A stretch of DNA of 50,474 bases from contig JALSOQ010000006.1 of the NCBI GenBank assembly GCA_026986375.1, positions 1 through 50,474 of the forward strand. The letters run 5' to 3'. The notes below the pieces were generated by a model that saw nothing but the letters and a program-made list of their open reading frames with translations, ran no database searches and had not been told where the DNA came from. Shown here piece after piece: positions 1 to 50,474 of this stretch. How positions within the stretch are numbered: position 1 is the first letter of the stretch; every line of letters starts with the position of its first letter. This DNA is from Archaeoglobaceae archaeon. Its GTDB lineage: Archaea > Halobacteriota > Archaeoglobi > Archaeoglobales > Archaeoglobaceae. Both the position numbers and the translations under genes were made by a program.

Positions 1-665
1 ATTGTGTATATTGCTGGGCGAGAAGGTTAGCAGAAACGAAGTTGAAGCGATGCATAAGGTACAGAGATGGATTCACTCCTCGAATAAACAGGGAGGAATT
101 CAGCAAGAAGTTCGAGGGTGGAGTAGTTTTCGTTAGCGATATGGGTGATCTTTTCGGAGAATTTATACCAGACGAATGGATAGAAAGAGTGCTTGAACAC
201 GTAAGGAGATTTCCAGACACATCCTTTCTATTTCTGACAAAGAACCCTGCAAGGTATGAGAACTTCGACTTCCCAGAAAACGCCATACTTGGAGCTACAA
301 TAGAAACGGATTTAAACGAATTCGACACCCCTTCAAATCTGAGAGATTACAAACAAATTAGTAACGCCCCACCTCCGAATGAAAGGATCAAGGCTATGAT
401 TAAGCTAGATTGGGATGCTAAATTCCTGTCCATTGAACCCATTCTTGATTTTAGTCCTAAGTTCTGGAAAAAGATTGAGAGAATTAACCCGTTCATGATC
501 TACATCGGTTACGATAACTACAGATGCAGATTACCTGAACCCATTCTGAGCAAGACTCAATCTTTAATTGAGAAACTAAAGAATAATGGTTTCTTAGTTT
601 TGGAGAAGACTATAAGGAGGGCTTGGTATGAGAAAGAAGAGGAGAAGAAAGAAAACAGCAGATGA
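1..665 (+). CDS. DUF5131 (phage Gp37/Gp68-like) protein, 5' end outside the window
   Basis: The reading frame is open from base 3 to the stop at 665, so the gene starts upstream of the window. The first codons read CVYCWARR, which looks like the end of the Cys-x2-Cys motif that gives this family its 'three-Cys' name and resembles a radical SAM cluster motif. Further in are family-typical blocks: a SDMGDLFGEFIP segment, FLFLTKNP, LGATIE and KFLSIEPILDF. The TTG at 42 is an internal codon, not the start. The C-terminus overlaps the next gene by 38 nt, so the two are surely co-expressed. The enzymatic role of the family is not established. Family call is firm; function unknown. Confidence 0.85.
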   Translation, partial: CVYCWARRLAETKLKRCIRYRDGFTPRINREEFSKKFEGGVVFVSDMGDLFGEFIPDEWIERVLEHVRRFPDTSFLFLTKNPARYENFDFPENAILGATIETDLNEFDTPSNLRDYKQISNAPPPNERIKAMIKLDWDAKFLSIEPILDFSPKFWKKIERINPFMIYIGYDNYRCRLPEPILSKTQSLIEKLKNNGFLVLEKTIRRAWYEKEEEKKENSR

Positions 666-48953: not shown

Positions 48954-50186
48954 CTACTTCTTTCCAACGACCTCGCTCCACTTCTTCTCCCAATACTCTC
49001 TTATAACTTCCAACGCTATCAGCTTTTCACCGCTCAGGAACCTTATGCAAGCTCCTCCGGCTACGGAAACGTGATCCATCTTCTTGTCTATTCCCATCAT
49101 CCTCGCCGCCGTGGATATGTGTCCTCCGCCAACTACTGAATACCCGGCCTTAGCAACCGCCTTTAGAATCTCAAAAGTTCCCAACGTAAACCTCTCGTCC
49201 TCGAAAACTCCAGCCGGCCCGTTTATCACCGCCACGTCGAACTTGGGTATCTCTTCGGACAGCATCGATATAGTCTCGATTCCTACATCCATTATCTTCG
49301 CCCTTCCGTCGAACTTGTCGAGGGGAACATCCTTTCTTACTCCGTTTACTTCAACTCCGACATCCACCGGCAGAACTATCTTGTCCTTGAACTTCTCGTA
49401 TAGCTCCTTCATCTCCTCATCGTTCACACCTTCCTTGTTCTCCTCTACAACCTTCCTGTTCACCTCTCCTATGTCCTTTCCGGAGAGCATTAGGAAGTAG
49501 TTGGCCACTACGCCCGTCAAAACGACTTTGTCGGCTATTCCCTTGGTAAGAACGTTCTTCATTACCTTCACCGCATCCTCTATCTTCACCCCTCCCAAGA
49601 TGAAGACCTTCCTCCCCTCGCTCCTCAAAGCCCTGCTCAAGGCGGAGATCTCCTTCTCGACGAGCCTTCCGACTACGGACGGCAGAACGGGAGGAAATCC
49701 TATTAGAGAGGCGTGAGGCCTGTGACAGGCTGAAAAGGCGTCGTTTACGAAGAGGTCGAAGTTATCCTTGAGCTTCCTTACCATGTGAGAGTTCGCGTGC
49801 TCCTCTGCACTCCTCTTAAGTTGCTCTTCAGAATAAAATCGGACGTTTTCGAGCAGAATAACATCTCCGGCTTTCATCCTCTTTATTTCCTCAACGACTC
49901 TGTTGCTGAATATCTCGTCCAAGTAAACGACTTCCCTCCCCAAAAGTTCCGACAGAACCTTGGCGTGAACTTCGAGAGTCGTGAAATCTTTTTTCCCCGG
50001 CCTGCTTTGGTGTGCGAGGACTACGACCTTAGCGTTTTCCAAATCCCTGAGGGTCGGAACGTGACTTTCGAAACGGGTCGTGTCGAGTATCGTGGAGTTC
50101 ACGATAGGAGCGTTTATGTCAACTCTGAGCAGGACGGATTTACCATCGTAATCGACATCGTCGAGAGTGGGAAGTCCGTCTATCAT
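48954..50186 (-). CDS. pgk: phosphoglycerate kinase
   Basis: 410 aa. Substrate and nucleotide motifs are clear: VLLRVDINAPIVNSTILDTTRFESHVPTL near the start, VVLAHQSRPG, VNDAFSACHRPHASLIGFP, FILGGVKIEDAVKVM, DVAVINGPAGVFE and VVGGGHISTAA. It transfers phosphate between 1,3-bisphosphoglycerate and ADP in gluconeogenesis or glycolysis. A leftward TATA-like GTTTTATAATC at 50204-50214 is about 25 nt ahead, so the transcript is probably leaderless. Confidence 0.95.
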   Translation of the reverse strand: MIDGLPTLDDVDYDGKSVLLRVDINAPIVNSTILDTTRFESHVPTLRDLENAKVVVLAHQSRPGKKDFTTLEVHAKVLSELLGREVVYLDEIFSNRVVEEIKRMKAGDVILLENVRFYSEEQLKRSAEEHANSHMVRKLKDNFDLFVNDAFSACHRPHASLIGFPPVLPSVVGRLVEKEISALSRALRSEGRKVFILGGVKIEDAVKVMKNVLTKGIADKVVLTGVVANYFLMLSGKDIGEVNRKVVEENKEGVNDEEMKELYEKFKDKIVLPVDVGVEVNGVRKDVPLDKFDGRAKIMDVGIETISMLSEEIPKFDVAVINGPAGVFEDERFTLGTFEILKAVAKAGYSVVGGGHISTAARMMGIDKKMDHVSVAGGACIRFLSGEKLIALEVIREYWEKKWSEVVGKK

Positions 50187-50267
50187 CGAAATTAATGCGA
50201 TTGGTGATTATAAAACTCATTCGTTTTCGGTCGATAAAGGATTTATAGCATCCACGGTAATATTCGA

Positions 50268-50327
50268 GGGATGATGACTGCGGCCGTATCTGACGAAAGG
50301 ATGATGATTAGTTCCAGCCCTGATCCC
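50268..50327 (+). ncRNA. C/D-box guide sRNA
   Basis: All four boxes occur in order: C ATGATGA (50271-50277), D' CTGA (50290-50293), C' ATGATGA (50301-50307) and D CTGA (50320-50323). GGG before C pairs with CCC after D to close the terminal kink-turn stem. The two 12-nt spacers are the standard archaeal length. Guides are CTGCGGCCGTAT before D' and TTAGTTCCAGCC before D, so targets should read AUACGGCCG and GGCUGGAAC, with 2'-O-methyl on the fifth base of each. GGATTTATAG at 50239-50248 gives it its own TATA. The 150 nt that follow show nothing else I can identify. Confidence 0.88.
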
Positions 50328-50474
50328 TTCGGCTAAATGTGATTTTAGGAGGTTTATAGGGTTTTGATTTCGAAGAGGACGGATTTTATTGGATCTGGCA
50401 TGATTTGATTTAGTTTTAGTATTGATAAAACTTATATTTTTTGCTTTGAGGTTTTGGGGAATAAAGAGACGAGA

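Follow-up and report, generated by a model that had tools for sequence, protein, structure and literature searches.

The question raised by this locus is whether a short stretch near the end of an Archaeoglobaceae contig encodes a working C/D box sRNA and, if so, which bases its two guides would select for methylation. The window, i.e., the whole stretch of DNA that was analysed, is contig C6 (50,474 bases) of a 1.46-Mb genome in 30 contigs. A complete double-guide C/D box layout was found at positions 50271–50323 of the plus strand. We are highly confident that this is a genuine double-guide C/D box sRNA of the archaeal type, conserved and apparently free-standing, with a predicted D′ target in helix 27 of the 16S rRNA. 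That confidence covers the class and the helix 27 target; the site of the D guide is less certain. Judged from sequence, the guide RNA very probably directs methylation at two or three exact 16S sites.

Layout of the locus

The sRNA is flanked on one side by the divergent pgk gene and on the other by the end of the contig, 151 nt past box D; box C is 84 nt from the pgk start in this genome. The original prediction gave the gene bounds as 50239–50327, but the RNA itself occupies 50271–50323 plus a few bases. All four predicted boxes (C, D′, C′, and D) and both 12-nt guides were located there. The features, with the boxes read from the sequence, are as follows:

48954–50186, minus strand: pgk (phosphoglycerate kinase), divergent neighbour; an open reading frame named from a reading of its protein
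50242–50247, plus strand: TATA-like element TTTATA, with AAAGG just upstream as a possible BRE
50264–50270, plus strand: 5′ arm of the closing stem, this genome only
50271–50277, plus strand: box C, ATGATGA
50278–50289, plus strand: D′ guide, CTGCGGCCGTAT, pairing with 16S 866–876 (helix 27); predicted Gm870
50290–50293, plus strand: box D′, CTGA
50294–50300, plus strand: D′–C′ spacer, 7 nt, varying among relatives
50301–50307, plus strand: box C′, ATGATGA
50308–50319, plus strand: D guide, TTAGTTCCAGCC, pairing with 16S 36–47 (predicted Gm40) and more weakly with 16S 709–717 (predicted Gm713)
50320–50323, plus strand: box D, CTGA
50326–50332, plus strand: 3′ arm of the closing stem, this genome only

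A TATA box at a suitable distance and a closing stem had also been predicted, and each stood in part. In each of the five genus members an A/T-rich element following AAAG(G/C) was read by eye, 30–33 nt before box C; it lies about 2–3 nt nearer to box C in this genome than in the congeners. At the usual archaeal TATA spacing, the sRNA transcript of this genome would begin at about box C. The TTTATA hexamer itself, however, is common in the window (37 observed vs. 25.6 expected). The closing stem is present here as seven contiguous pairs with 2 nt skipped, but it is not a conserved part of the RNA, since only 0–2 pairs can form in the four congeners and three pairs in the two homologues from another genus (g12). 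The whole RNA folds no more stably than shuffled versions of itself (z 0.03); RNAs shaped by L7Ae usually fold no better than shuffles. A bacterial-type promoter and terminator scan, which is ill-suited to archaea, found no terminator and a single promoter-like site, on the minus strand.

Two observations concern the opposite strand. A second TTTATA is found on the minus strand at 50209–50214. It precedes the pgk start codon by 23–28 nt and has similar counterparts in the congeners, which suggests that the pgk transcript is leaderless. An 85-amino-acid open frame runs over the sRNA on the minus strand (50217–50474, open to the contig end). We took it to be spurious, because similar frames in the congener loci L009 and L010 occur only where the sRNA is conserved, and no similar frame was seen at L011 or L016.

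Assignment to the C/D box class

Several features assign the locus to the archaeal C/D box sRNAs. It carries, in the expected order, boxes C (RTGATGA), D′ (CTGA), C′, and D (CTGA), with guides of about 12 nt; the predicted rRNA duplexes have a Watson–Crick pair at the fifth base upstream of D or D′; and the guides are conserved across species, in all five members of the genus and, with changes, in two of the three g12 genomes. The genome also encodes fibrillarin and Nop, recognized by Pfam matches of 236.6 and 148.2 bits, respectively. When the window and 60 random windows built from its dinucleotide frequencies were searched on both strands with a strict and a loose form of the four-box pattern, the pattern turned up a single time in the window and never in the random sequences.

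No Rfam C/D family (sR3, snoPyro_CD, sR17, or others) reached its gathering score on the sRNA: sR3 scored 26.2 bits against a cut-off of 41, and snoPyro_CD 24.4 against 45. The C/D character was nevertheless recognized, with an E-value of 1e−4 for sR3 in the 575-base Rfam search. A BLAST search of the sRNA region against a plasmid collection gave no matches.

Conservation among relatives

Using window positions 50240–50345 as the query, we searched 60 genomes, including the source genome, and obtained matches in six: the source genome, all four congeners, and one g12 genome (G015, 75% identity). The congener matches span query positions 30–84 or 32–84 (window 50269 or 50271 to 50323) at 89–91% identity. 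In all four, similarity ends at the boxes and the flanks drop out. Within the RNA, 11 of the 12 positions of each guide are invariant in the five genus genomes; changes fall in the first base of each guide, in the spacer, and in the flanks.

The congener sRNA contigs are also four of the eight pgk loci examined (L009, L010, L011, and L016), and thus represent four genomes rather than eight. The sRNA is divergent from pgk in every one of them, the distance between box C and the start of pgk being 106, 646, 168, and 158 nt; in the 646-nt case (L010) an open frame lies between the two genes. At L009, L011, and L016 a long convergent open frame ends a few nucleotides from box D. The strict C/D pattern was absent from the other four pgk loci (L012–L015). 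On the far side of the L010 sRNA from pgk there is a second four-box C/D candidate (222–269, minus strand).

Pattern searches gave a similar distribution, although exact patterns would miss more diverged copies. Across the phylum, the D′-guide pattern occurred in 11 of 392 genomes: the five of the genus, two of the three in g12 (G015 and G025), and four others. Those in the last four (G060, G203, G349, and G383) look like chance matches and are not followed by C′, a guide, and D. The D-guide pattern occurred in 7 of 55 family genomes, the same seven. The g12 sRNA copies had no pgk gene at a distance of up to about 1.5 kb. The source genome (G000) and one congener (G003) also carry a different sRNA with a related D guide.

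These comparisons bear on whether the locus might be a dead copy, or a chance arrangement of boxes, that has no function. The missing terminator-like site in the bacterial-type scan and a closing stem unique to this genome would fit such a reading. Against it stand the guide-specific conservation throughout the genus and in two of three members of another, and the random windows devoid of the pattern; we regard it as extremely improbable. The genome comparison instead supports the prediction of a free-standing C/D sRNA that has two defined guides; the gene also has its own TATA-like element.

Predicted target of the D′ guide

The original prediction had proposed rRNA and tRNA of the same genome as the place to look for complements of the two guides. 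We took the 16S and 23S genes from this genome, the 16S gene being on a different contig from the sRNA, together with 5S rRNA and 43 distinct tRNA sequences (ARAGORN calls in the loci of 44 Rfam tRNA matches). The best target of each guide is in the genome's own 16S rRNA and is absent from the window. Of the two target strings predicted, GGCUGGAAC is found literally in the 16S rRNA, whereas AUACGGCCG occurs only as GUACGGCCG.

The D′ guide pairs with 16S 866–876, a region we take to be helix 27, forming 11 bp (one G–U and 10 Watson–Crick) at −21.4 kcal/mol. This is its best site by energy across the 16S and 23S rRNAs, and the 10 Watson–Crick pairs, at 867–876, are consecutive. Counting to the fifth base gives G870 (E. 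coli G894 in the alignment), and Gm870 is a firm prediction. Shuffled D′ guides reached the observed score somewhere in the 16S or 23S rRNA in 73 of 1500 trials; the D′ match taken alone is therefore modest, and it gains its weight from conservation. Random 12-mers from the window reached the D′ score in 37 of 1500 trials and the D score in 5 of 1500. The helix 27 pairing is retained in g12 (−18.4 kcal/mol).

We also considered the possibility that at least one guide of this C/D sRNA is directed to a tRNA or another RNA rather than to 16S rRNA. Such guides would have precedent, as one survey reports 163 of 489 archaeal C/D sRNAs without significant rRNA complementarity (PMC4644070), and the D′ guide makes 10 contiguous pairs, G–U included, with tRNA-Asn. 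That match, however, scores 9.0, compared with 10.5 for the D′ guide on 16S rRNA, and the D guide scores at most 7.5 in any tRNA or in 5S rRNA. For both guides the best tRNA and 5S candidates were thus weaker than those in 16S rRNA and were rejected; we consider non-16S targeting very unlikely.

Predicted targets of the D guide

For the D guide the original prediction named GGCUGGAAC, which is 16S 709–717, but the best target proved instead to be GGCUGGGACUAA, near the 16S 5′ end. At this site, 16S 36–47, the guide forms 12 bp including one G–U at −20.0 kcal/mol, the best value among 16S and 23S sites. Shuffled D guides reached the observed score in only 3 of 1500 trials. The fifth base, G40, is in a stretch without an E. 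coli counterpart, falling between E. coli positions 45 and 46 in the alignment. The G–U pair splits the duplex into six plus five Watson–Crick pairs, and the pairing falls short of the rule of nine consecutive Watson–Crick pairs described in PMC4644070, whereas that at 709–717 has nine. Two further sites, 16S 154 and 23S 420, score 9.0. Because four sites thus score 9 or more, the D target is less certain than that of D′.

The main competitor is 16S 709–717, with fifth base G713 (E. coli G741). If this were the working target of an otherwise genuine C/D sRNA, in place of 36–47, the two methylation sites would be 157 nt apart. The nine Watson–Crick pairs there are unbroken, at −17.3 kcal/mol, and the guide U that forms the G–U at 36–47 pairs with A at 709–717. 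However, the guide bases U-A-G, invariant in all five genus genomes, pair at 36–47 only of these two sites. In addition, g12 retains the 36–47 pairing (−13.5 and −15.3 kcal/mol) and loses that at 709–717 (−5.6 and −6.8 kcal/mol). For these values all three targets were present in the 16S rRNA of G015 itself, and G025 was scored on the target letters of the present genome. Among the congeners, G001 and G002 have unchanged letters at each of the three 16S targets; the 16S rRNA of G003 is visible for 36–47 and 709–717, and no 16S gene was found for G004. The retention of one pairing and loss of the other in g12 favours 36–47 as the older partner of the D guide, and we consider it unlikely that 709–717 is the working target. 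We therefore keep 36–47 as the preferred site, with Gm40 as a likely and Gm713 as a possible site of methylation.

These assignments lead to the following proposal. The sRNA would be transcribed from its own promoter and bound by L7Ae, Nop5, and fibrillarin at C/D and C′/D′. Paired with the 5′ strand of helix 27, the D′ guide would direct 2′-O-methylation of 16S G870 (E. coli G894), and the D guide, paired with 16S 36–47, would direct that of G40, perhaps with G713 as a second substrate. By holding two distant 16S strands together, the RNA might also have a role in folding.

Other C/D sRNAs of the genome

The C–D′–C′ pattern matched the genome 27 times, this sRNA included and two of the matches overlapping; a reversed-pattern control gave none. 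From these, 25 distinct four-box RNAs (again including this one) were parsed, of which 15 have both guides matching the same rRNA with a score of at least 9, a lax threshold, so that some of the double-guide sites will be chance. In 11 of the 15, the closest such sites are separated by no more than 105 nt. The exceptions are L057 (389 nt), L072 (272 nt), L058 (861 nt), and the present sRNA, whose sites are 157 nt apart with the weaker D site and 830 nt apart on 16S rRNA with the best. Clusters of two or three C/D-like matches each were seen at C10:52988–53132 (L062–L064), C16:42044–42141 (L072 and L073), and C26:47021–47141 (L081 and L082). Another C/D sRNA, L066/L104 (C10:122715–122746), has a D′ guide on the same 16S 5′ stretch with its fifth base at nt 42, two bases from the predicted G40 site; it is also found in G003.

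One of the exceptions, L058/L094 (G000:C7:17958; C7:17958–17989 and downstream), is a companion to the present sRNA. Its D′ guide pairs with helix 27 around G878 and its D guide with the 16S 5′ end (helix 1) around nt 17. From these pairings, both this companion and the present sRNA link helix 27 with nucleotides 1–50 of 16S rRNA. The D′ pattern of the companion occurs in 8 of 55 family genomes: four of the five in the genus, two of three in g12, and both in g11. The genus member without it is G004, which is 81% complete. The four genus members that have the companion share an identical D guide; the g12 and g11 copies carry different ones.

The shared arrangement raises the possibility that the two sRNAs jointly act like U3, each holding helix 27 and the 5′-terminal strand of 16S rRNA (nt 870 with nt 40 for this sRNA, nt 878 with nt 17 for the companion) and so keeping the central core or the pseudoknot open until methylation is complete. 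None of 1000 shuffled guide pairs joined both regions, although the regions were picked after the data had been seen, and the site list used the lax threshold of 9. Other points tell against the idea. The D guide has alternative sites with a score of 9.0 (16S 713, 16S 154, and 23S 420); the companion pattern is missing from one of five genus members; and the pairing of the companion D guide with helix 1 is weaker in other genera, at −13.3, −9.5, and −14.9 kcal/mol for three copies from two other genera, scored against the target letters of the present genome, compared with −18.1 here. We regard a joint U3-like role as speculative and rather improbable. Archaea are not known to have U3; were the reading true, the chaperone role of U3 would be split between methylation guides in archaea, and archaeal control of the folding of the 16S 5′ end versus helix 27 would become testable. 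Literature searches surfaced no report linking archaeal C/D sRNAs with U3 or the central pseudoknot.

Comparison with known systems

Boxes A and A′ of eukaryotic U3 snoRNA are described as hybridizing to H1 and H27 of 18S rRNA, near the central pseudoknot (PMC9196750). The present sRNA is like U3 in contacting helix 27, and the companion contacts both helix 27 and helix 1. It differs from U3 in that its best D site is 16S 36–47 and not H1, so that the H1 plus H27 combination is lacking, and in that its guides are positioned for guiding methylation.

Another eukaryotic RNA for comparison is yeast snR41, which directs 18S Am541 and Gm1126 (PMC5199042). Both are single C/D RNAs with two far-apart small-subunit sites. 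Yeast G1126 is, we assume, in helix 27, where Gm1126 would match the companion's site (16S G878) rather than G870.

No guide list for Archaeoglobaceae surfaced in literature searches naming Archaeoglobus. A small-RNA cloning study of Archaeoglobus fulgidus from 2002 reportedly found C/D sRNAs, and we therefore claim no first for the family. The present gene gives Archaeoglobaceae one more guide RNA, predicted to direct methylation of 16S rRNA at two or three sites.

According to two studies (PMC4644070; PMC7994747), known archaeal C/D sRNAs have the same box order, 12-nt guides, fifth-base rule, and 16S targets, and their double guides often target sites within 100 nt of each other, whereas the best targets of the present sRNA are 830 nt apart. 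In PMC4644070, helices 3, 18, and 27 form the densest 16S region of predicted sites, and the distant-pair sRNAs of its Table 3 are put forward as possible chaperones. Examples in that table are Tte sR15 (A509 with C35 and 530) and Iho sR206 (G36 and 505 with G482); the pair of nt 40 with nt 870 is absent from that table. The present sRNA resembles these RNAs in that a guide has two possible targets, including one near 16S nt 35–40, and the other guide has a single target; it differs from them in that the partner region is helix 27 rather than the helix 18 region. It is a further member of a well-known class, mildly unusual in the distance between its targets.
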